Of a DNA stretch of 63,630 nucleotides, positions 40,614 to 63,106 are shown piece after piece. The stretch's first letter is position 1, and every line of letters starts with the position of its first letter. A model generated the notes under the pieces. It searched no databases. It had not been told where the DNA came from and saw only the letters and a list, made by a program, of their open reading frames with translations. The DNA is from Brevinematales bacterium (GTDB lineage: Bacteria > Spirochaetota > Brevinematia > Brevinematales > GWF1-51-8), in the NCBI GenBank assembly GCA_013177895.1, contig JABLXV010000011.1, positions 1 to 63,630 of the forward strand, in the 5' to 3' direction. The position numbers and the translations under genes were made by a program.

Positions 40614-41750
40614 TTATTCGACCCACCTGTATACATACACCGTCCAACCGAAGTTAAACAGGAGATAAATCGAACCGTCAGGCGCGGCATAGAGCTTAGC
40701 CTCGCCCGAGTTGTTCATCTCAGGAATGTTCGGCGTCACCGCGACACTTCCATCCTCGTTCAATTTTAGAATCGAATGTACTGTATCCGCACCTGTCATA
40801 TAATGTACGAGAATATATGCGGCGGGCGGGGTGGTTTTAGATACCGCGACGCTGAACGGACTGGAATCCATGATGCACCCGTTACTGGAGAAGAAGGGCT
40901 GGGTATAGAGGGTGGGAGCGACCGCGGCGGATAGATCGAAGATGTCGTAATATAACGTATTGGTGGTATTCTGGTAAATCAGGAACATTTTATTATCCGG
41001 GGAAATCCCATAGTGGAAATAGTACCCGGAAAACCCGAAACTCGTTGTCGTCCAGGAATTATCGTTCATCTGATAGGTCAAATTATGGAAGTTATTTGTG
41101 CTCCAGAGGACGAAGGGATGATTATCCGCTGAAAAATCGAGTTTTATATAAGTAATGGGAAATGTAAAGAATGAAAAGCCGTATCCCGCCGGCGCAGTCC
41201 AACTGTTATTATTAGACGAACAAGAAATGATCAGACCGTACATACCGGAATTGGTATCGAATGCAGTATAAAGTGTTTCGGAGTGGTCTTTCTTAAAATC
41301 GAAAATAGAAAAATTTGAACCGAAATGACTGGGAATATAAGGCTCAGCGGGATTGATACCAAAATTATAAATCTCCCCGTTATCGTCCCCGAATTTCATC
41401 GCCACCGTGGGATTCCCATTGACAAATTGGAGAATCGGGCGGTTTTGTACACTGAAACCGTTAACACTGTTAACCGCTTTCCAATTTCCATCGAACTGGT
41501 ACAGGATCACATTTAAACCCGGGTCTCTCGTCACGAGAGTGGGTACACCGGCGGGACTGACGTCGAAGGAAAAATCACCGGCAGACTGCGCGGCATTCGG
41601 GACGGCTTGGCCTAGAAGAACCCATCCCTTTTTATCAGCCAATTGCTGGATATTATTCTGCATACCGGGCTGGAAGAAATGGAAAATGGCGCAGGAAGAA
41701 AGCACAACAGAGAAAAACACAGATAAAGAAAAACCCCTGAATATACGCAT
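40614..41750 (-). CDS. HFF-motif lipoprotein, array member 6 (last gene)
   Basis: A 378-residue lipoprotein of an unrecognised family. The signal peptide ends VLSSC with the lipidated cysteine at 20, followed at once by AIFHFFQP and then QNNI. The body is strand-rich with short repeats such as NPTVAMKFGDDNGEIYNF and HPFVLWSTNN, ending APDGSIYLLFN...VYVYRWVE. This suggests a beta propeller, by inference. The ATG at 41750 gives a clean signal peptide; upstream in-frame codons are less likely. It is 199 bases from the previous array member and has its own promoter candidate at 41887-41914. It shares the N-terminal motif with five upstream genes. Confidence 0.8.
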   Translation of the reverse strand: MRIFRGFSLSVFFSVVLSSCAIFHFFQPGMQNNIQQLADKKGWVLLGQAVPNAAQSAGDFSFDVSPAGVPTLVTRDPGLNVILYQFDGNWKAVNSVNGFSVQNRPILQFVNGNPTVAMKFGDDNGEIYNFGINPAEPYIPSHFGSNFSIFDFKKDHSETLYTAFDTNSGMYGLIISCSSNNNSWTAPAGYGFSFFTFPITYIKLDFSADNHPFVLWSTNNFHNLTYQMNDNSWTTTSFGFSGYYFHYGISPDNKMFLIYQNTTNTLYYDIFDLSAAVAPTLYTQPFFSSNGCIMDSSPFSVAVSKTTPPAAYILVHYMTGADTVHSILKLNEDGSVAVTPNIPEMNNSGEAKLYAAPDGSIYLLFNFGWTVYVYRWVE

Positions 41751-41886
41751 CAACGACCCCTTGAGTGTAATAGGGGCTACTCCAGAAAATCGCAACATTA
41801 ATCAAATAAGAGGTTGTTATTGAGAGATATGCCCCGAAGCCGCTCATCAGCCGAGTATTTGCCCGGAGCTAATGCGACCATGTTAT

Positions 41887-41914
41887 AGTATATATCATTT
41901 TATGCGAATTTCAA
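41887..41914 (-). promoter_or_regulatory. Internal promoter in the lipoprotein array
   Basis: On the minus strand TTGAAA (41909-41914) and TATACT (41887-41892) are 16 bases apart. It lies in the only large gap of the array and could drive the last gene separately. The RNA leader would be about 130 bases. Confidence 0.55.
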
Positions 41915-41949
41915 AATATTTTTTCATATTTGTAGTAATTTTATCGGAA

Positions 41950-43146
41950 TTATTCCATTTTGTACACCGATAAAATGTGATTGTTTGTATTCGCAGGATT
42001 TACCGTTAATAGCGCGACGTAAAGGGTGCCGTCCGGAGCGATAGCCATCTGCGGTATCATAGCCGCGGTATCTTCAAAACCCGACGAGTAAGCGGTACAC
42101 ATTTTTTTATAGTTTCCGGCAGGGTCGATCCTGAATACGTTAAGATCAGCCATATCCCCTATCTTCTGAGCGGTAAAAAAATAACAATAGTAGGGAAATA
42201 TTTTCGAGGTAGCTGAATACTGTTTACCGGGGAAGACCATACCGTTTGTAAGCATTTTATGGGTGTGTGGTGTTGAAATAGCGGGGTCGGAGGTAGGCCG
42301 GATATCGAAATAAGCCTCTATAATCTCATTTGTAGTAGTGCCGGAAACTTCCATATCGAAGACGTTATAGAAATAATAAATATTATTCCCTCCGTCTATA
42401 TTGAAGGATAAAAGCTGGATACTATTGGTAAAGTAGAAATTCTGAGGAGCGGCGGAGGGATTGAATTTTGTTAATAACGATCCGGTACCTAAGCCCGCAA
42501 GCAGATATACACTGTTTTCCTGATCCGGTAAAAGCGTAAAACTTGAAGGGATATCGGTATAATATATATCAGTAAAATTCGGATTTAAGCTCCATACCGA
42601 CGTAGAAGTATCATACATACGGACAAAATTTGTCCCGTAAACATTGGTAGTGAATGCGATAAACTGATCGTGAGAATTAAGGATAGTATAATCGAAAAGA
42701 TCGTCAATTCCGATGTATGTGAACATTGATACTTCGGGAGTAGGTGTCTGCGCGTCGAATCTGAATAATTGCCCCCAACTGGAATTATCCTGATAGGCGA
42801 CATAAGGAATATCGCCGATAAAATCCAGTACGGGACTGCTGCCGCCCGTCCCTGGAAAATTCGAACTAATGATATCCCACTTTAAACTACCGGGATTATA
42901 CTTGTAAAGCACAATATTATCATTAGTCGAACGCAGCGCCAGATAAGGGATATTCTGCGAATCGACCCCTAACGAGAAATCCTCTAATGTGGAATAAGTA
43001 TTGAAAAAAGGGTCTCCCAATAAAGTAAGATGCTTCAAGTCCGCGAGCTCGAGTATCTTATTCTGCGCGGACGGCTGGAAGAAATGGAACAGCGCGCACC
43101 CGTTGAAGAAAAGAATACCCGCTAGCAGTAAAACCGTTTTTTTCAT
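41950..43146 (-). CDS. HFF-motif lipoprotein, array member 5
   Basis: A 398-residue paralogue. The lipobox is FFNGC (cysteine 17), then ALFHFFQP and QNKILELADLKHLTLLGD. This third line is shared with the neighbours at 40614 and 43213, which form one sub-group. The C-terminus MAIAPDGTLYVALL...LSVYKME matches the closing motif of the family. The start is the second ATG of ATGATG, six bases after AGGGG. The role is unknown. Confidence 0.82.
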   Translation of the reverse strand: MKKTVLLLAGILFFNGCALFHFFQPSAQNKILELADLKHLTLLGDPFFNTYSTLEDFSLGVDSQNIPYLALRSTNDNIVLYKYNPGSLKWDIISSNFPGTGGSSPVLDFIGDIPYVAYQDNSSWGQLFRFDAQTPTPEVSMFTYIGIDDLFDYTILNSHDQFIAFTTNVYGTNFVRMYDTSTSVWSLNPNFTDIYYTDIPSSFTLLPDQENSVYLLAGLGTGSLLTKFNPSAAPQNFYFTNSIQLLSFNIDGGNNIYYFYNVFDMEVSGTTTNEIIEAYFDIRPTSDPAISTPHTHKMLTNGMVFPGKQYSATSKIFPYYCYFFTAQKIGDMADLNVFRIDPAGNYKKMCTAYSSGFEDTAAMIPQMAIAPDGTLYVALLTVNPANTNNHILSVYKME

Positions 43147-43212
43147 CATTATCCCCTGGTAATATATTTTGAACATGCCTGTAAAGATAAATTTCCGGAA
43201 CGCCGGAAAGGA

Positions 43213-44313
43213 TTACTCGAAGTAACGGAAAACCTGTAAAGACTCATCACCCGCCAGTGTTTGGGATGCCACAAGATATAAAGCCCCGTTCGGTGTGGCA
43301 TATAAACCGAAATTATAGGTACCATGTACCGGTACTTCACCGAGCATAGTTACCGTATTATCCTCGTTTATCTCGGCGACAGAATAATTTGTCCCTGTAT
43401 AGTCCGAGAGAAGGCAGTATGCCTTATACGGCGATGTTCCGGTTACCGTAAAGGTCGGATGCGACATTAATAGATAGCTGTTCGTTTGCAACAGAATGGC
43501 GTCGTTTGTAGAAAAACCCGGCGAGGACATATTTGCGATGTTGTACCATACATTGCCATCCATTGTGCTGTACACGCTAAACAGACTGCTTCCGGCGATT
43601 TTCGTAAATATCGGTGAAACATTAATCGAGAATACCGAGTTTTCATTATATACATAAGTGAGAGAACTAAAGCACATAAAGGAATAGGCGCTTTCCCCCC
43701 AAAAATCAAAGTACACATTATCGAAAGTGCCTGCGTTTTGATACTGCGGGAATGAAGACGATTCTACCCACGCGCTTCCGTTCCATAATTTGACGTTGAC
43801 ATAAAAGCTCGTTCCATCATTCGTTTCGAAGTTGACGCCCATTCTTCCGCCCGGGCTGATACTGAAATCGAAATAATCGACGTTACCGGCAATAAAGGTA
43901 TCCATCAAATGAGGGTAACCGGATGAGTAATCATATACGCCAAGGGTGTACATACTATCGAGAACCGCGACAAACGGGATATCCTGTTTGAATCGTAAAA
44001 CGGCTTTATATCTATAGTCGGCGTTAGTCAGCTGATTCTCTACTACCCATTCTCCGTTGTAGCGGAAAAGAGTATCATTATTCGATGTAGTGGTAAAAAA
44101 GAGATGGGGGATTTCATGGGAATCGAACGCAAATGAAAAAACGGCGCCCATGTAGATATCGTTAGTAAACGTCTGTCCCATCTGCACCCAGCCCTTCAAA
44201 CCCGCATAATAATCTACCTCGTTCTGCACGGCGGGGTTGAAAAAATGGAATAGGGCGCATCCGTTTATAAATATCAGTAACGGCAAGACTAATAAATAAC
44301 ATTTCATTTTCAT
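43213..44313 (-). CDS. HFF-motif lipoprotein, array member 4
   Basis: A 366-residue paralogue. The lipobox is FINGC (cysteine 19), then ALFHFFNP and QNEVDYYAGLKGWVQMGQ. The ending YATPNGALYLVAS...LQVFRYFE keeps the family closing motif. It is 18 bases downstream of the gene at 44332, so very probably co-transcribed. No enzyme motif is seen. Confidence 0.82.
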   Translation of the reverse strand: MKMKCYLLVLPLLIFINGCALFHFFNPAVQNEVDYYAGLKGWVQMGQTFTNDIYMGAVFSFAFDSHEIPHLFFTTTSNNDTLFRYNGEWVVENQLTNADYRYKAVLRFKQDIPFVAVLDSMYTLGVYDYSSGYPHLMDTFIAGNVDYFDFSISPGGRMGVNFETNDGTSFYVNVKLWNGSAWVESSSFPQYQNAGTFDNVYFDFWGESAYSFMCFSSLTYVYNENSVFSINVSPIFTKIAGSSLFSVYSTMDGNVWYNIANMSSPGFSTNDAILLQTNSYLLMSHPTFTVTGTSPYKAYCLLSDYTGTNYSVAEINEDNTVTMLGEVPVHGTYNFGLYATPNGALYLVASQTLAGDESLQVFRYFE

Positions 44314-44331
44314 AGCACCTTCTCTTAATAG

Positions 44332-45444
44332 TTACCACTTTGTAAATATTCTGACGTTTCCAGTATAGTCCTCCACCGCGGCGACGGGATTCCCGTCCAT
44401 GTCGATAGAGAGTTTTATGCATTCCGAATTAGTGAGATCGCCGGGCAGCCCGAGCATCGGGGAGACCACATCCCCGGCAACTTTCAGAATGTGGGGTTTA
44501 TAGGTATCGGCGTCGATAAATCCCACGTAGATATATCCACGGTTTTTATCGGGGACGACCGAAACCACGGCATTCCCGCCTGTATCTATATAGACCTGTT
44601 CGGGATACAAACGGGCGGTTCCATCGATATTCAAGTTATCGTTCCATACGTGGAAAACGGACACCGATAACAAACCATCCTGGTCTAAATATACTCCGTA
44701 GATATTATCGAAACCGTCGACAACGACCTTCGCAAGTTGATGAGCGTTTGTAAAATTATATATCCTGGAGGTATCGTTTATCGTGTAAAAGATCGCGCAG
44801 TTAGATATAAAACCGGCGCCGGCAAATATCTTTCCGAAGGAATCGACGTCAATACTGAGGTCGACTATTATATCGGGGAACGAATAAGGCGATCCCATGA
44901 TATCCTTCCATGGATCCGAAGCGAAAGGCTGATTGAGGTCCTGTATTCTGAACTGACCGGGCATACCATTATCATAAAAAATCACGAATATTGATCCTGT
45001 CGATATTGCATAATCCCATAGCAGGACTTCTGGGGAACCGAAATAAAGGCTGGTATAAGGTTGCCATGTACTACCCTGATCCCATTTACTTATCATTCCT
45101 CCAAAACTCTGGTCGATATACCCGTTAAACATGCCGAAATCCTGACGGTATTTTAGTAATACCGAGTATGCGGTAGTCGCGGGATTATCGATGCTGTTCC
45201 AGATGGAGTTCTGGTTATCATAACTTTTTACGATAGGATTAAATATCGAGGTTTCGATATAACTGAAGAAAAGGGTATCGTTATCGCCGACACAGATGGA
45301 ATAATTAGCGGCATCGATATTGCTGATTGAGGCTGCTTCGCTCCAATGCGTATCGTTGATTACATTATTCACCGCAGGCGGGAAAAAGTGGAAAAGAGCG
45401 CAGGATGAGAATAAAAGCGCGATGACTGGAATAAGTAGCTTCAT
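44332..45444 (-). CDS. HFF-motif lipoprotein, array member 3
   Basis: A 370-residue paralogue with lipobox LFSSC (cysteine 15), then ALFHFFPP and NNVINDTHWSEAASIS. The W-x(4-6)-S pattern after the motif unites it with the 45456 and 46589 genes as a second sub-group. Internal segments DSFGKIFAGAGFISNCAIFY and DNLNIDGTARLYPEQVYID resemble the same regions of 45456. It ends SIDMDGNPVAAVE...VRIFTKW. The ATG at 45444 leaves an 11-base gap after the upstream gene. Confidence 0.82.
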   Translation of the reverse strand: MKLLIPVIALLFSSCALFHFFPPAVNNVINDTHWSEAASISNIDAANYSICVGDNDTLFFSYIETSIFNPIVKSYDNQNSIWNSIDNPATTAYSVLLKYRQDFGMFNGYIDQSFGGMISKWDQGSTWQPYTSLYFGSPEVLLWDYAISTGSIFVIFYDNGMPGQFRIQDLNQPFASDPWKDIMGSPYSFPDIIVDLSIDVDSFGKIFAGAGFISNCAIFYTINDTSRIYNFTNAHQLAKVVVDGFDNIYGVYLDQDGLLSVSVFHVWNDNLNIDGTARLYPEQVYIDTGGNAVVSVVPDKNRGYIYVGFIDADTYKPHILKVAGDVVSPMLGLPGDLTNSECIKLSIDMDGNPVAAVEDYTGNVRIFTKW

Positions 45445-45455
45445 CGGTATACCCC

Positions 45456-46574
45456 TTAATACCATGTTTGAAATATATGTAACGTGGGAGGCTGTAATAT
45501 CGCCGCTACGGGAAGCCCTTCCTGATTCACCGCGAGTTTTATAGCATTACAGTTTGTCATATATTCGGGGAATGCCGGCATAGGTACGGCGCTCCCGTTT
45601 TCAATCTTGATCACCATCGGTTTGTGGTTGTCCATTGTAATAAAACCGACAAAAATCCGCGTCGAGTTTTTATCTACAGCCACACTCAGACCTAATTTGT
45701 GACTGGAGCCCACGAAAAATGACTGGTTATAGAGGGTAATGGCTCCATTGTCGGAAATATCAGGATAAGTATAGCTCATAATGCGGACTTTAATCTGATC
45801 GTCCGTCGATTTATAGATCACATAGAGGTTATCGCTTCCATCGACCGCGATTTTGGCATACTCACGGCCGTCGGGGATATTAAAAGAGGCGCAAACCCCG
45901 CTTGCCCCGTTGAAGTATATCTGCGAATGATTAAAATCACCGGTTCCGACAAATACGTTACCGTGGGAATCGACGTCCGCGGAATAGTCCATAATGGAAT
46001 ACCCGACGTCTTTATTGAAGCTCTGATATTGAACCCATGTGCTGCCGGGCATATCAGGTTCATTGTTGGTATCTATTAAAAAAGACGAAGGGGAATTGAT
46101 TGTTAGAATAAAAGGGTCTCCATAAATATTAAAAAAATAATCCCAATCAGGCATTGCGGCTGCGCTAAATGAAGGCCCGAAAGCAGTAAACCCGCTGGAA
46201 CTGCTGCTGAACACGATCTGGGCTTGTCCGCTGGATTGAGTGGCAAATGTTAAATTCCATTTTTTATTATAGGCGACTTTCAACGCATCCATGGAAGAGG
46301 CCGGCATACCGAAGTTGGTTGCCCATTCGTCGGATAGAAGGGAAGCGAATACTACAGCGAATTTCATGGTGGCAGTCGAGTAAACCGCCGTGTACACCCG
46401 ATCGGAATCGTCGACGGTTATCGAGTAATACCTCGCATCGAAGATGCCGGATAACGAATGCATCGTGTTCCATTGCGGCTGGTTCAGCGTATTATTCGCC
46501 GAGGGTGAAAAAAAGTGCAGTAAAGCGCATGACGATAATGCGAAAAGCGGGATTAAAAAAAGTAACTTTCTCAT
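45456..46574 (-). CDS. HFF-motif lipoprotein, array member 2
   Basis: A 372-residue paralogue with lipobox ALSSC (cysteine 16), then ALLHFFSP and NNTLNQPQWNTMHSLSG. The central region (SADVDSHGNVFVGTGDFNHSQ, DGREYAKIAVDGSDNLYVIY) shows DxxGNxxV-type units spaced about 40-50 residues apart, as in propeller blades. It ends AVNQEGLPVAAIL...LHIFQTWY. It is 14 bases from the previous gene. Confidence 0.82.
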   Translation of the reverse strand: MRKLLFLIPLFALSSCALLHFFSPSANNTLNQPQWNTMHSLSGIFDARYYSITVDDSDRVYTAVYSTATMKFAVVFASLLSDEWATNFGMPASSMDALKVAYNKKWNLTFATQSSGQAQIVFSSSSSGFTAFGPSFSAAAMPDWDYFFNIYGDPFILTINSPSSFLIDTNNEPDMPGSTWVQYQSFNKDVGYSIMDYSADVDSHGNVFVGTGDFNHSQIYFNGASGVCASFNIPDGREYAKIAVDGSDNLYVIYKSTDDQIKVRIMSYTYPDISDNGAITLYNQSFFVGSSHKLGLSVAVDKNSTRIFVGFITMDNHKPMVIKIENGSAVPMPAFPEYMTNCNAIKLAVNQEGLPVAAILQPPTLHIFQTWY

Positions 46575-46588
46575 ACGCCCCCCTATGC

Positions 46589-47773
46589 TTAATTCATCCT
46601 GAAAATATAAGTATTTGTCGACGGATAATCCTGTGATACCGCCGCGGCCGCTTTATTATTTTGATCGACCGCGATTTTTATATACGTGCAGTTGTAAAGA
46701 TCAGTAGGAAAGCCGGATACCGGGGTAAATAATCCGTTTTTATAGCATAAGACCTTCGGTTGACGATAATTCAAATCGATAAACCCGACATAAAATATCG
46801 TCCGGTCATTATTATAGTCCAGCGAAATCGCGCTTTGCTCGAACGAATCCAAATGATAAACGGTGTCGTTATAGATTCCCGTCTCCCTGATAAGCGTCAG
46901 ATCCGCCGTTTCGTTATTGACCGTAAACTCTTTATATTTCAGGACTATTTTTTCGCTCCAGTTCCCGATATACACGCAATGAAGATGGTCGTTCTTATCA
47001 ATAAATATTTTCGCGGAATCATAGCCGTCGTAGAATTCATGCACTTTGATTTCGTTATTTTTTGTATTGTAGATATAGATAATAATTTTGTTATCCGCTG
47101 CCAAACATGAGTAAATATGCCCGTTCACCGATTGAGCGATGCTGACGGTTCTAAACGGGATATGGCCTATATTTGTTACGACTAACGTGCTCCATGAGTT
47201 TCCCGCCCAATCGTTACAAATTTTAAGATTGAGATTTGAATTCATACTATTTACATAAGCAATGAGAGTGTTCTCCAGTTGGGTATTCTGAAGGTAATAA
47301 TCGAAGATTGGCATTATACCGGAGGCTTCGCTCTGAAATGCCGTGAAATTCCATGAACCGGTACCGGTATTGCACTGTAGAAATCTTAAATCCATTCCGG
47401 AATACTTCGCGAGGATAAGCGGATAAGGATAGAAGGGACTGTTTTCCTTGACGAACTTAATGAGAGGAAAGGAGTAATTGGAGGAATAATCGAAACCGTA
47501 TTGCGGGAACGAACCGTCGGAGGACTCGCTGAATACTTTAAGCGCATTCATATTATAATTTTCGGTATATGCGAAATACACCCTGTTATCGGGATTGACG
47601 GCGATGGAAAACTCGGGCACTTTTATATTGTACCCCTGGTTAAACTCATGCACAAGATGCCACCCGCCGGAGGTCAGCGCATTATTGATCACAGGCTGAT
47701 AAAAATGGAGTAGTTGACAGGACAATAAGCCGGAAAAAACCGGTATCATGCCGGATAGAATAAATTTCCGCAT
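46589..47773 (-). CDS. HFF-motif lipoprotein, array member 1
   Basis: The most upstream and most divergent lipoprotein of the array, 394 residues. The lipobox is GLLSC (cysteine 19), then QLLHFYQP and NNALTSGGWHLVHEFN; alanine and phenylalanine of the usual motif are Q and Y here. It ends AVDQNNKAAAAVS...TYIFRMN. It starts 9 bases after the stop of the barrel protein gene, indicating one transcript. Confidence 0.8.
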   Translation of the reverse strand: MRKFILSGMIPVFSGLLSCQLLHFYQPVINNALTSGGWHLVHEFNQGYNIKVPEFSIAVNPDNRVYFAYTENYNMNALKVFSESSDGSFPQYGFDYSSNYSFPLIKFVKENSPFYPYPLILAKYSGMDLRFLQCNTGTGSWNFTAFQSEASGIMPIFDYYLQNTQLENTLIAYVNSMNSNLNLKICNDWAGNSWSTLVVTNIGHIPFRTVSIAQSVNGHIYSCLAADNKIIIYIYNTKNNEIKVHEFYDGYDSAKIFIDKNDHLHCVYIGNWSEKIVLKYKEFTVNNETADLTLIRETGIYNDTVYHLDSFEQSAISLDYNNDRTIFYVGFIDLNYRQPKVLCYKNGLFTPVSGFPTDLYNCTYIKIAVDQNNKAAAAVSQDYPSTNTYIFRMN

Positions 47774-47782
47774 ATCATCGCC

Positions 47783-49201
47783 CTAAAAATGGAACCTCAC
47801 ACCCAGCGAAAGAGTTACAGGGAACTGATAGGTCTCAAAATTCGCCAAAGGTGCGAAGTAGAATCCGGCGCTCAACATCAGGAAATCGTATTCCAGCATC
47901 ACATGCGGCCCCACCACAAAGGAACGTTCAGGCGAGAATACTTGGGACACATTTAAAATTTCCGGGGCGATCAGCGACAGAAAGTAACGGGCGGAGATTC
48001 CGGCGGCGAGACGGAAACCTTCTGTTCCGCGGTTGCCCAGAATATACGCGCCGACATCGATACCCGCGGCCACGCTCAGCATGAATGTCTCTCCGGGGAA
48101 CGCGTTACCCCAGTCGCCGAGAAGGGGAACAGGGCTTATTCCGAGCATCAAGCCGGTATAAAACCAGTTATTCCAGAAATAATCGCCGTATGCGACCAGC
48201 ATCAGCCCGTCGTTCAGGTTCAGCCGCATCGAGAACCCGCCCAAACCCTTCAAGGACGGATTGAGAAGGACACTCTCTTTATCATGGAGAGTAAACGTAT
48301 TGGTATAAACGAAGTTCGTCTTGTCCTCGATCAGCCAGAACGTATAATCGCGTCCGGCGTAAATATTCGATAGAACCGTGTTGTCGGATACGATATTCGT
48401 CTCGGCGGCATGGATAAGGTACAGATCATAGATGGATTTCGCCTTCTTATTAGGAATTGCGGGAATACTGATAACGCCCACCGCGTAATATCCGATCGTA
48501 ATCGCCTCGCCCTTCTTTGGGACAAACGTCTGGTCGAACGCGACCGCGGCGGTGGAAAGGTTCCGGAGGGTTATCTGGTAATTCTGGTCGGCGAGTACTT
48601 TCAGGTTCATACTGAAACCGTCGCCCGCGACGTCGGAGATATATTTCTCGTTGATATATAACCCGTATTTTTCGCTGCCGATACGGAAACCGCTGAACTG
48701 GAGGGTCGCCACGGCGAGCTGTTTCTGGAGTGTCTGCGCGATAATATCTTCGAGCATGTTATCGATAGCATCGAGCACCTCGAACTCCGTCCCGGAGGTG
48801 TACGATTTCTGGAAGAAAACCGCGCCGAGTTTCTGCGACCAGACATACAGGTTGATGGATAATTTCTGATCTTTTTTAGTTTTTCCCGTGAGGGTATAAT
48901 CGCCGTAAATAATGAAGTCCGCCGGGTTGAGCGCCGCGAATGTGGAGACGTTGGATGAGTCGAACTTCATGGAGAGCAGTTTGTCACGGTCGGGCAGGGT
49001 GACGCCGGGTATGATTTGTATAAAGTTATGAATAGGCCCGAAGAACAGGATACGGTAGTTATCGGAACCCGCCGAATTTTCCTTTGGGGTAAGGTTCTGG
49101 AGCGGCATGATCAGCAGACTGATGTTGTTCGTATTGCTTTCCTGAGCGAAAACAAGAACCGGAAGGATAATAAACATGATGAACGGTAAAAACTTCTTCA
49201 T
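47783..49201 (-). CDS. Exported protein with TolB/CsgG-like and PEGA-like N-terminus and C-terminal barrel
   Basis: Leader gene of the array, 472 residues, with an SPase I signal peptide (ends LVFAQ). Residues ~25-160 resemble a TolB-N/CsgG-type fold (LLIMPLQNLTPKENS, ADFIIYGDYTL, QKSYTSGTEFEVLD). Residues ~175-245 look PEGA-like. After ~300 come amphipathic strands and a barrel-like C-terminus (TLSLGVRFHF, ending in F). The N-terminal 240 residues are clearly related to those of the 61238 protein, which has a different tail. It could be the outer-membrane anchor or exporter for the six lipoproteins; this rests on gene order only. Confidence 0.75.
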   Translation of the reverse strand: MKKFLPFIMFIILPVLVFAQESNTNNISLLIMPLQNLTPKENSAGSDNYRILFFGPIHNFIQIIPGVTLPDRDKLLSMKFDSSNVSTFAALNPADFIIYGDYTLTGKTKKDQKLSINLYVWSQKLGAVFFQKSYTSGTEFEVLDAIDNMLEDIIAQTLQKQLAVATLQFSGFRIGSEKYGLYINEKYISDVAGDGFSMNLKVLADQNYQITLRNLSTAAVAFDQTFVPKKGEAITIGYYAVGVISIPAIPNKKAKSIYDLYLIHAAETNIVSDNTVLSNIYAGRDYTFWLIEDKTNFVYTNTFTLHDKESVLLNPSLKGLGGFSMRLNLNDGLMLVAYGDYFWNNWFYTGLMLGISPVPLLGDWGNAFPGETFMLSVAAGIDVGAYILGNRGTEGFRLAAGISARYFLSLIAPEILNVSQVFSPERSFVVGPHVMLEYDFLMLSAGFYFAPLANFETYQFPVTLSLGVRFHF

Positions 49202-50639: not shown

Positions 50640-51847
50640 ATGAAAAATCTGGTCATACTTTTCCTTTCATTTATTTTTGTTTCCTGCGGGTCAAAGTACG
50701 GCCTGGTTAAAATCGGGCCGGTTACTTTACAAAAAAATCCCGAAATACTGTCGGTAAAAAGTTCCCCGGATAACCTGCCCGCCGAGTATATCTTCTACAA
50801 CAACACGACGAACAGGATAGTCTTTATCTCGAGGGAGGCCTACTTCGCTTCCGCCGACGGGATATGGAAATCCGGCATTATCGGGCCGTTCGATACCCCC
50901 GTCGTAGTCAATCCCGGCGATAAGTGGATATTTAACGATAAAATTTTTGTTCCGTCCGACGTCATCGATTCGATTATCGACGAGGGCAAGATGGACGGGG
51001 AAAAGTTTGCCTTCATCCAGATTTTTCATTATGAAGGCTCAAACACAAAGGGCGAGATAGTAGTCAAATGGAAGGTAAAGCTCGATTATTCGCAATGGCA
51101 TCAGGATACTGTAAAAAAGGAAACCCAATATTACAAAGTACAAATCAATCCCGATTACTTCAGTAAATCCTATGAATCCCAACGGTTGGAGAGTTTTCTC
51201 GCGTATTTCGACAAAGTGTACTCCGAGCTTGGAAACACGTTGGGGTATCTCCCGGTCGGGGGCGGCAAGATCAAGCTCAGGTTAACCGAATGGGGGGGAT
51301 TCCCGTATTTCGCCCCGCCGCGTCCGGCCCGTTCGTGTCGATACCCGCGTCATTGATAGTCAATAATAGCGGCTGGCTCTATGTGGTGTACCCTCACGAG
51401 TTGACTCACTACTTCCTGCTGACCGAATTCCCCGATCCGCCCCGATGGATGGTGGAAGGCCCGGCCTCCTATTTCGCGGGAAAAGTCTGCGCGGCGTTGG
51501 GGTATCAGAAGATCGCCTCTGACGACGGGGCGAAGATATCCAAATGGGGTGAGGAGTATGCCGAAAAGGGCAAGACCTACCTTTTCACCGATAAATGGCC
51601 GCAGGATAATACCGGCGACCATCCCCTCGGCTTCGGCAGGGCGTTCCAGCTCATGGGGGATATCGAAAAACTCTGCGGGAGCGGTATTTTTATCAGACTG
51701 TTCCGCCAGTGGAAACAGGACGGGTTCCAGTTCCCGGCGGGTAAAAGCCCGATGGAAAAGACCGCGCTCGTGATCGATTCTCTCGCGAAGTTGTCCGGTA
51801 AGGACGTGATGAAACTGTTCAGGGAGTACGGCTATACGGGGAAATAG
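50640..51847 (+). pseudogene. Gluzincin-like (HExxH) secreted lipoprotein, frameshifted
   Basis: Two overlapping frames make one ancestral protein homologous along its length to the 405-residue product at 51903. The first part (from ATG 50640) has a lipobox FVSC (cysteine 16) and runs in register up to GGFPYFAPP near 51320. The match then continues one frame back from about 51317 (ASGPFVSIPASL) to 51847. One base appears lost around 51312-51325. The second part has HELTH (51395-51409) and WMVEGPASYFAG, the metal and third-ligand pattern of peptidase MA-type gluzincins. It could be a true pseudogene, a sequencing error or a programmed shift. The upstream leader contacts the inserted element. 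Confidence 0.75.
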
Positions 51848-51902: not shown

Positions 51903-53120
51903 ATGAAAAGGTTATTTCTGGTTTCAGCGGGGCTATTATTGGCTTCGCAAGTCATTTTTTCAGCCGTGCTGAACGGCACTAAGGAATTGGGCGTATCGGT
52001 TCAACCCGATAGCCTGATATTGGAGGAGTTCGGCGGATGGGTTCCCGGTACGTATATATTTAAAAACAACTCGAAAGAGACCATCGAATTTACCGTCCGC
52101 AACGCGGTCTTTGTTACTTCCGACGGGGCATGGACTTCAGATAACATCGGCCCGTTTCCTACGAAGATTACGGTCGAACCGGGGGAAACGTATAATTTTG
52201 ACGATAATATCCTCGTCCCGGTGGAGATTGTTTTCGAAATGTACAGTATGGAAAAGCTGAAAAACGGTGAATGCAAGTTCATCCAGAAATTCAATTACCT
52301 CTGCGGCGATAAGGAAGGGACGGTTTCGGTAAAGTGGGATGTGAAGATGCCGACCTCGCCGGAAAAGATGCAGTACCTTATCACCAATACCCCGGATTAT
52401 ACGATTCTGGCGGTAAAATCGAATTTCACGACTCCGGAGTCGCGTGAAAACCTCGCTAAGTTTATTACCTTTACGGAAAAAATCTACCCCCAGATAGTAA
52501 AGGCATTCGGGTATATGCCCTCGAAGGAAAAGAAGGCCTTTCTTCGGATAGAAAACTGGGAGATGTTTCCTTACTTCGTAGGCCCATTTAATGGGCAGAG
52601 TTTTATTTACATTCCCGCGAACCTGATCATTTACCCGACGGAGTGGATGAATATAGCGTTCCCGAGAGAGCTCGCTAATTATTTCTTTTATTCCGAGTTT
52701 CCCAACGCGCCGTTCTGGATGGCCAGGGGTTTAACGTGTTATCTTGCGGGGAAGGCGTGCGCGGGCGCGGGATATGATAAAATAGCGCAGGAAGAGGCCG
52801 CCAAGTATACCTACGGCGGTAACCAATATGCGGTGAAAGGAAAGAAATATCTGTTTACCGATCAGTGGGAGATCTATAATGCCGGCGACAGCGCTATGGG
52901 AATCGGGCGCGCGTACCAGTTGATGGGCGAGATTGAAAAACTCTGTGGTTCCGACATATTTACCAAACTATTCGCGAAATGGAAACAGGACGGGTTTAAA
53001 TTTTCGCAGAAAATGCCAGCTATCGAAAAAACCGCTCTGATTATCGACGCGCTCGCGAAAATATCCGGCAGAGATGTTTTAGCGCTGTTTACCAAATTCG
53101 GTTATCAGCCGGGGAAATAG
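51903..53120 (+). CDS. Catalytically dead gluzincin paralogue, secreted
   Basis: A 405-residue exported protein with an SPase I signal (ends VIFSAV). It matches the upstream frameshifted gene throughout (for example GRAYQLMGEIEKLCGSDIF against GRAFQLMGDIEKLCGSGIF). The zinc site is destroyed: HELTH is RELAN at 52665-52679, and WMVEGPASY is WMARGLTCY, so both histidines and the third-ligand glutamate are gone. It must act, if at all, by binding. GGAGG precedes the ATG. A terminator follows. Confidence 0.85.
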   Translation: MKRLFLVSAGLLLASQVIFSAVLNGTKELGVSVQPDSLILEEFGGWVPGTYIFKNNSKETIEFTVRNAVFVTSDGAWTSDNIGPFPTKITVEPGETYNFDDNILVPVEIVFEMYSMEKLKNGECKFIQKFNYLCGDKEGTVSVKWDVKMPTSPEKMQYLITNTPDYTILAVKSNFTTPESRENLAKFITFTEKIYPQIVKAFGYMPSKEKKAFLRIENWEMFPYFVGPFNGQSFIYIPANLIIYPTEWMNIAFPRELANYFFYSEFPNAPFWMARGLTCYLAGKACAGAGYDKIAQEEAAKYTYGGNQYAVKGKKYLFTDQWEIYNAGDSAMGIGRAYQLMGEIEKLCGSDIFTKLFAKWKQDGFKFSQKMPAIEKTALIIDALAKISGRDVLALFTKFGYQPGK

Positions 53121-61237: not shown

Positions 61238-63106
61238 GTGAAACAATCTATTCTTTTTCTGGTCTGTAGTGTATTGATTCAAATTATTACTTTTCCACAA
61301 TCCGGAATTTCAAAAAAAGGGAATGTGGTTGAAATCCAGAAAAAATCGGTATTAGTCCTGCCGATTCAAAATCTTTCACCCCAGAATTTTTATCAGAAAA
61401 CAGATCAGTATATTATTATTATCTGGAAAAACCTATTAAACTTTCTGGAACTTATTCCATCGATAGATATTATTACGAATAACCAAAAGGAATTTAAAAA
61501 TTGGGATAAAGCGGATATTAAAATAATTTCTTCCAATTATCACGCATCATTTATTATCACGGGCGAAGCCTATCTGACGAATAAGAATTTTGATATTTTG
61601 GTTGAAATCTGGGATAAGGCTAAAGGGAAAAGTATCTATCAAAAGACCTATACATCCGGTACCGGGTATGAATTTATGGATATGCTAGATACTGTTATTG
61701 ATGGAACCGTCAGTTCGTTAATGAATACCCCGATAGAAATAGCCTTTATTCAGTTTAACAATATTAAAATTGGCGATAAACCGCTGGAGGTATTCCTGAA
61801 CGGTAAAAAAATCGCAAAAGTTGAAAATAGCGGGTATTATGAAAAAATACGTGTCCCGGCGGGAAATACATACCGTATTGAAATAATTGATACTGGCGGA
61901 AAAACGGTATTAAAAAAAGTTGTGATACCTAAACCGAATGAGATGGTTACAATTGAGTATTCCCCACCGATAGTGATTCAGCCGGAAGTATTATCGAAAA
62001 TAAAAAAGTATGAAATTGCTCAGTATAACAGTATAAGTTATTTCACTATTTCCCCCGATGGTTCAAAATTAGGATTTCAGTATCAGAAAAATGAAAAATG
62101 GTATCTGAATTTAAACGGTGAAATATTCGGGGCCTACGATAGTATGGGATTTCTTAAATTTTCTGACGATGGAATGAGCTTCGGATTTGATTATAAGGAT
62201 GGAGAAAGTTCCTATATTAATATTAATAGTATTGTCTATGATAGTTATGAGGGAGGTGTATTTCTTGTTTTTTCTCCCAATGGGAAAAAATACGGATATA
62301 CCTACTCCAAATATGGAAAGAAATACATCAATATAAACGGGAAAATTTTTGGGGGATATGATTCGGTGGGGGGACTTGTTTTCTCTAAAGTCGGTTTGGA
62401 TTATGGATTCTTTTATGTTCAGGGTGGGAAATGGAATACTTATGTGAATGAACAAAATTACGGAAAGTATGACTCAGTGGGGAAAATGGTCATATCCGAC
62501 GATGGAAATTATTTTGGTTTTGATTATAAACAAAATGAGAAGTGGAATGTGTATATTAAAGATAAACTGTATAGCGAATCTGCCCCGGTCAAGTGTCTGG
62601 AAATGTCTCAGGACGGGTCAAAATTCGGATATTGTTATGGAAGTTATATAAAAGTTGATAAAATGATTTACGGGCCATATGTATCTATCAAGAGCCTAAA
62701 ATTCAGTAAAAACGGTTCGAGCTACGGTTTTGTATATTTTTATGGCGGTAAATTTTTTATCAATATTAACGGTACTATTTACGGGGGTTTTGATATCATA
62801 GGAAATATCGTTTTTTCCGAAAACGGCGCTAGTTTCGGGCATTCCTATAATTTGAACGGTAAATGGTATATCAATATTAATGGAAAAATATTCGGGAATT
62901 ACGATTCAATCGGGAAAATTGTTTTTTCTTCGGATGGGTTAAAAAAGGGATTCAGTTATTATATGAATAATAAGTATTACATCAAAATAGATGAAATCAC
63001 TTATGGGCCGTACTCTTTCGGTGATTTTACGCTTAACGATAAAAAGAAAGAAATAATCTCTTATATTAAAGATAATTACGCATATATTGAAGATGTAACA
63101 CGGTAA
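61238..63106 (+). CDS. Secreted protein with TolB/CsgG-like N-terminus and nine propeller-like repeats
   Basis: A 622-residue exported protein, GTG start behind GGGGG. After the signal peptide, residues ~30-235 are homologous to the N-terminus of the 47783 protein (VLVLPIQNLSPQN, FIITGEAYL, QKTYTSGTGYEFMD, then a PEGA-like block). Residues ~268-600 are nine units of about 38 residues following F-S-x-D-G-x3-G-F-x-Y then GKWYI-INGKIFG-YDSIG, plus a decayed tenth. The repeats would form one or more beta propellers or a WG-like solenoid. The DNA is AT-rich compared with housekeeping genes. Function unknown; envelope binding is a guess. Confidence 0.8.
   Translation: MKQSILFLVCSVLIQIITFPQSGISKKGNVVEIQKKSVLVLPIQNLSPQNFYQKTDQYIIIIWKNLLNFLELIPSIDIITNNQKEFKNWDKADIKIISSNYHASFIITGEAYLTNKNFDILVEIWDKAKGKSIYQKTYTSGTGYEFMDMLDTVIDGTVSSLMNTPIEIAFIQFNNIKIGDKPLEVFLNGKKIAKVENSGYYEKIRVPAGNTYRIEIIDTGGKTVLKKVVIPKPNEMVTIEYSPPIVIQPEVLSKIKKYEIAQYNSISYFTISPDGSKLGFQYQKNEKWYLNLNGEIFGAYDSMGFLKFSDDGMSFGFDYKDGESSYININSIVYDSYEGGVFLVFSPNGKKYGYTYSKYGKKYININGKIFGGYDSVGGLVFSKVGLDYGFFYVQGGKWNTYVNEQNYGKYDSVGKMVISDDGNYFGFDYKQNEKWNVYIKDKLYSESAPVKCLEMSQDGSKFGYCYGSYIKVDKMIYGPYVSIKSLKFSKNGSSYGFVYFYGGKFFININGTIYGGFDIIGNIVFSENGASFGHSYNLNGKWYININGKIFGNYDSIGKIVFSSDGLKKGFSYYMNNKYYIKIDEITYGPYSFGDFTLNDKKKEIISYIKDNYAYIEDVTR

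Follow-up and report, generated by a model that had tools for sequence, protein, structure and literature searches.

What keeps the first residues behind the lipidated cysteine nearly constant in a row of lipoproteins whose bodies have diverged strongly? This question is raised by a window of 63,630 nucleotides (the whole stretch of DNA analyzed here) from an uncultured member of a genus within the Brevinematales (Spirochaetota), the genome of which measures 3.6 Mb. Six consecutive minus-strand genes, designated lp1 to lp6, each encode a lipoprotein, and in these six genes the lipidated cysteine is followed by one of the octapeptides C-AIFHFFQP, C-ALFHFFQP, C-ALFHFFNP, C-ALFHFFPP, C-ALLHFFSP, and C-QLLHFYQP and then by x-x-[QN]-N. 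The extended motif covers 13 residues, C-x-[LI]-[FL]-H-[FW]-[FLY]-x-P-x-x-[QN]-N. An initial annotation had singled out the six genes and their common motif, and both were confirmed, each gene with its lipobox. The array proved larger than described there, since the coordinates given omitted a gene at 47783-49201 (minus strand) that heads the row and encodes a predicted outer membrane beta-barrel, the candidate partner of the lipoproteins. The motif is conserved, modular, family specific, and linked to barrel genes, and we consider the chances about even that it is a module by which the lipoproteins dock to the co-encoded barrel.

Conservation was evaluated on an alignment of 26 sequences of the family, which come from four congeneric species (G000 to G003). 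Related genomes were the Brevinematales records Spirochaetes bacterium GWF1_49_6 and DeMMO6_14 and three further genomes of the genus, two of which are evidently identical to these records. A signal peptide and a lipobox are present in all six lipoproteins and in all relatives. Four alignment columns are invariant (C+1, H+5, P+9, and N+13), all of them within the motif, and just one column outside it is more than 90% conserved. Mean pairwise identity is ~60% in the motif and ~20% in the bodies, and mean conservation is 0.73 for the motif versus 0.54 for the highest-scoring stretch of 13 body columns; even pairs whose bodies are less than 25% identical share 59% identity in the motif. These values bear out the contrast between divergent bodies and a conserved N-terminal stretch that had been noted for the six genes. 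Such a stretch could lack any function, being either what a recent tandem duplication has left least altered or the product of homogenization by gene conversion, and the six genes are indeed paralogous, with a copy number that varies among the four species (6, 6, 6, and 7). However, paralogue clades are common to several species and are therefore older than the species split, indicating that the motif has persisted over a long time in which the bodies drifted apart. Furthermore, among the six window genes, the codons for identical motif residues differ in 61 of 125 comparisons. Since the codons differ for identical residues, we reasoned that selection, not gene conversion, keeps the motif; gene conversion was rejected, and a stretch devoid of function is hardly credible.

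On the minus strand, a degenerate DNA pattern for the motif heptapeptide is located at 47699-47719 (lp6), 46509-46529 (lp5), 45382-45402 (lp4), 44239-44259 (lp3), 43078-43098 (lp2), and 41673-41693 (lp1). This pattern has eight matches in the 3.6-Mb genome, namely, the six genes, a lone paralogue (C21), and one chance frame, and the reversed pattern, used as a control, has none. Pattern matches at G000:C28:25644 and G003:C31:4762 were rejected since their frames lack a lipobox. The lone paralogue carries the full motif (C-Q-L-[FL]-H-F) away from the array in all four species (G000:C21, G001:C95, G002:C56, and G003:C3), and the copy at G001:C95 seems to be broken, with its matches falling in separate frames.

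The six lipoproteins and the barrel protein all score below the cut-offs of the Pfam and NCBIfam families, and the description of the motif as unrecognized thus holds. The structure of lp4 was modeled from 26 sequences with a predicted local distance difference test score (pLDDT) of 87 and a predicted template modeling score of 0.86. Residues 41 to 377 are confident and form a predicted beta-propeller, and residues 1 to 40 score ~50. When this model was used as the query, Foldseek returned beta-propellers at an E value of 1e-9 (WDR91 WD40, LGI1 EPTP, and PLL/PHL lectins), and a sequence profile also gave weak propeller matches; judging from the strand number and the best structural matches, there are probably about seven blades. 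The motif and the following helix (residues 22 to 38) lie outside the confident part, with a pLDDT of ~50 versus ~90 for the body. The motif might be part of the protein's own fold, as a plug or strap on the propeller, which would agree with its invariance within one fold family. However, because it is of low confidence and detached in the lp4 model, packing on its own propeller does not explain its conservation, and related ends occur on beta-helix and BNR bodies (see below). We therefore regard a role in the protein's own fold as very unlikely. As far as the model goes, the most conserved part of these lipoproteins is a part that the fold does not need.

The motif occupies the position at which known lipoprotein signals sit, and the initial annotation had proposed that it may be a signal for sorting, for example, to a Lol or surface-export machine. 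A general machine reading such a signal might be Lol or follow an Lpt-like route, or the motif might be analogous to the lipoprotein export signal (LES) of Bacteroidetes, likewise a short post-cysteine signature on lipoproteins, with the form K-(D/E)2 or Q-A-(D/E)2 (PMC5080379). The LES, however, is charged and is found on many surface lipoproteins (PMC5080379), whereas the motif described here is hydrophobic-aromatic, contains invariant His, Pro, and Asn residues, and belongs to one family; no acidic cluster of the LES type is present at +2 to +6. An N-terminal profile of 20 residues around the lipidated cysteine detected 29 places in the four genomes, all of which belong to this family, the next match having an E value of 0.15. 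In a background set of 68 lipoproteins, collected from 1.1 Mb of contig starts by a simple rule rather than a trained predictor, the form H-[FW]-x-x-P does not occur (0/68), and the exact motif is on no other protein of these genomes. Because a general signal would be expected on many lipoproteins and the exact motif is confined to the propeller family, we rejected a general export signal as the main explanation and consider it unlikely. A variant in which the barrel itself is a dedicated exporter would merge into the docking explanation. Phylum-wide matches of the family profile were dropped as evidence on the motif, since they cover only the propeller body and the readable N termini lack the motif.

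The alternative suggestion of the initial annotation, an interaction handle for a common partner, fared best, and the barrel protein at 47783-49201 is the candidate for that partner. This reading draws support from synteny in four species and from related ends that occur on unrelated folds beside relatives of the barrel. The protein comprises a signal peptide, an N-terminal alpha/beta domain, two beta-rich repeats, and a C-terminal eight-strand barrel ending in ...RFHF; the predicted signal peptide, antiparallel strands, and C-terminal aromatic residue are those of an outer membrane barrel. Its model has a pLDDT of 57, with the barrel strands (residues 321 to 471) mostly at ~70, and it matched the eight-strand OprF barrel 4rlc (probability 1.00, target-normalized template modeling score [TMt] 0.62, E value 0.027) in a search that is weak since the model is weak. 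One relative of the barrel matches OMP_b-brl (PF13505) at 5e-6. The barrel at 47783-49201 is small and has no match to a TonB-dependent receptor. On the other strand of the window, positions 61238-63106 encode a protein paralogous to the N-terminal part of the barrel protein (E value of 5e-44), with no recognized lipoprotein adjoining.

Within the array, the barrel gene is followed, after a gap of 9 nt, by lp6 (46589-47773, C-QLLHFYQPVINN), lp5 (45456-46574, C-ALLHFFSPSANN), lp4 (44332-45465, C-ALFHFFPPAVNN), lp3 (43213-44313, C-ALFHFFNPAVQN), lp2 (41950-43176, likely start at 43149, C-ALFHFFQPSAQN), and, as the last gene, lp1 (40614-41798, likely start at 41750, C-AIFHFFQPGMQN). All are on the minus strand and, like the modeled lp4, all are predicted beta-propellers; counted from the first ATG, lp1 to lp6 are 394, 408, 366, 377, 372, and 394 amino acids (aa) long. 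The row is operon-like. Scans for promoters and terminators yielded nothing decisive; a row running from the barrel gene to lp1 is plausible, and lp1 could have its own promoter in the 151-nt gap that precedes it. A convergent plus-strand gene for a B12-binding radical SAM protein (TIGR03960/TIGR03936; 38084-40606) marks the end of the syntenic block and is not thought to be a member. Barrel, lipoproteins, and radical SAM gene follow one another in this order in each of the four species; the lipoproteins number 6, 6, and 7 in the other three, and the G001 copy of the block is split over two contigs. Compared with the three other species, the barrel is 66 to 94% identical and the lipoproteins are 27 to 80% identical. 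Between the two closest species, the ratio of nonsynonymous to synonymous substitution rates is 0.14 to 0.31 for the lipoproteins versus 0.08 for the barrel, indicating that the lipoprotein bodies evolve faster than the barrel. Elsewhere in the window, a predicted lipoprotein (C-GSKYGLVKIGP) and a second gene are located at 50640-51356 and 51903-53120, and relatives of the second gene also flank the barrel block in G002 (L028:12328-14818).

Relatives of the barrel were found in 7 of 13 genomes of the order, the closest outside the genus being those of another family of the order (G008:C7 and G009:C16). Directly after these two barrels are lipoproteins with the ends C-GLFYPPAFYE, C-GLFYPPLYDT, and C-ELFFPPSVYE. 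One of the bodies is like the propeller family, one is a Ycf48-type BNR protein (PF14870, E value of 3e-5, just under the cut-off), and one is a right-handed beta-helix. The hidden Markov model of the window family on its own matches the N terminus (positions 1 to 33, signal peptide included; i-Evalue of 3e-5 with 14 proteins searched) of a G009 protein with a right-handed beta-helix as its body (PF13229, above the cut-off). Two G008 proteins, one propeller-like and the other a beta-helix, bear the ends MRKILFLLPAAFLLLVSCGLFYPPAFYESVV and MRKMLFLLPAAFLILAACELFYPPAFYEGIV, respectively, and 24 of 34 residues of signal plus end are alike in the two proteins. Since nearly the same signal plus end is thus attached to two bodies without similarity, the end behaves as a swappable module. 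With a joint profile of the related ends, a search of 247 Spirochaetota genomes yielded only two families of the order and two weak matches to short frames of 86 and 36 aa, which further argues against a signal read by a general machine.

Additional cassettes with the same barrel family are present in the genus. A distant propeller paralogue (C-ALFYPQFF) has a barrel of this family directly after it (E value of ~1e-20), and other cassettes contain lipoproteins with C-AFLLPPAISEDY, with C-ALFDELLNPGDI (FG-GAP/Ig), or with C-SFVEDLFRPSDI/C-DMFHNTDIG (beta-helix). A hydrophobic-x-Pro end is found in 8 of 11 barrel-adjacent cassette types versus 8 of 68 background lipoproteins (p of ~6e-5), a count to be taken as an indication only, since the pattern was written after the first group had been viewed. 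A possible lipoprotein-barrel fusion at G001:C4 (a 644-aa frame) was discarded as an artefact, its junction falling in a run of N where an intact relative has a stop codon. In a separate region, L332:1271-3865, tandem lipoproteins with C-GLFFIDGANDQAVSPLALTGGA ends lie beside a barrel-like frame, and a similar lipoprotein is encoded at L270:987-2213.

The motif can also be read without any protein partner. LFHFF would then dip into the lipid headgroups as a membrane-interface anchor and set the tilt of the head, a task for which hydrophobic and aromatic residues straight after the lipid are well suited, and the ends of the other cassettes are hydrophobic as well, followed by Pro and the start of a helix. 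However, an anchor would need less specificity than that of invariant His, Pro, and Asn residues with constant spacing, such a stretch is absent from most lipoproteins in the background set of these genomes, and the ends differ between cassettes yet are common within one. An interface anchor therefore appears rather unlikely. Several observations weigh against docking to the barrel. Confidence in the barrel model is low, many members of the barrel family lack a lipoprotein next to them, and the full-motif lone paralogues at G000:C21, G003:C3, G002:C56, and G001:C95 have no barrel gene alongside, the distance to a barrel of the family being 16 to 17 kb in G000 and G003. In addition, two background lipoproteins with the end C-[AT]-[VL]-F-[DK]-E-L-L-E-P-S-D-I have no recognized barrel neighbor.

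Docking to the barrel has a structural precedent in Bacteroides, where the linker from the lipidated cysteine of BtuG2 to its seven-bladed propeller follows an extracellular loop of the barrel BtuB2, to which it is hydrogen bonded (PMC10404256). As in the present array, a propeller lipoprotein is encoded together with a barrel in the BtuG-BtuB system (PMC10404256). However, BtuB is a plug-containing TonB-dependent transporter, whereas the barrel here is small, with eight strands and extra N-terminal domains, and it alone heads 5 to 7 paralogous lipoproteins in which the post-cysteine stretch is conserved more than any other part. On the docking reading, the array works like the BtuG linker but outside the BtuG-BtuB system and without a TonB-dependent transporter. 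We infer that the end contacts the barrel and that the heads face outward as ligand binders. The lipid on the cysteine would be placed in the outer membrane, and the hydrophobic-aromatic residues +3 to +7 would rest against the small barrel protein or at its rim. At P+9, the chain would turn and continue as a short helix (+10 to +17), presenting the propeller head. A single slowly changing barrel may in this way be the common holder for six quickly diverging heads (5 to 7 in relatives), which presumably bind different ligands. RcsF of Escherichia coli is a single stress sensor that does not form a tandem propeller array and is not known to carry a comparable post-cysteine motif. As a lipoprotein, RcsF is reported to form a complex with the barrel OmpA, a protein of the eight-strand type, or OmpC, and in this it resembles the proposed arrangement (PMC7553776). 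The adhesin BPP43_05035 of Brachyspira pilosicoli is another spirochaete beta-propeller lipoprotein, seen on the cell surface, but one with six blades that is encoded by a single gene and said to be unique to its species; the passages considered report neither a barrel partner nor a shared post-cysteine motif (PMC11444514).

A second type of cassette surfaced unsought in the background sample. At G008:C11 (L280:8954-14146), two paralogous barrel-like proteins are interspersed with three lipoproteins that are unrelated in fold but share the end C-x4-D-L-[EK]-x-x-[IV]-F-P; the lipoprotein bodies are laminin-G-like (PF13385), Kelch (PF01344), and an apparent beta-helix below the Pfam cut-off. This end has no convincing match elsewhere in the 13 genomes, the next one being a 52-aa frame with an E value of 0.0025. 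In the home genus, too, barrels related to these stand between lipoproteins, with the ends C-E-[LI]-x-[KR]-[DN]-[IV]-[LF]. We tentatively raise the possibility of an address code in the order, in which each small barrel would head its own cassette and all of that cassette's lipoproteins, whatever their fold, would have one short barrel-specific end in common. As a separate observation, small barrels (186 to 193 aa) at L327, L328, L329, and L330 lie between very large lipoproteins (807 to ~1,300 aa) with the ends C-E-[LI]-x-[KR]-[DN]-[IV]-[LF] and C-TSLNELTLDDFRDLL, conserved in four species.

If docking holds true, an end that is swappable and matched to a barrel would provide a simple, testable rule for how spirochaete lipoproteins find a given site or partner in the outer membrane; partners would be predictable from sequence, and such an end could be grafted between unrelated heads. 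In a lipoprotein, the strongest constraint can fall on residues that are usually taken as a free tether.

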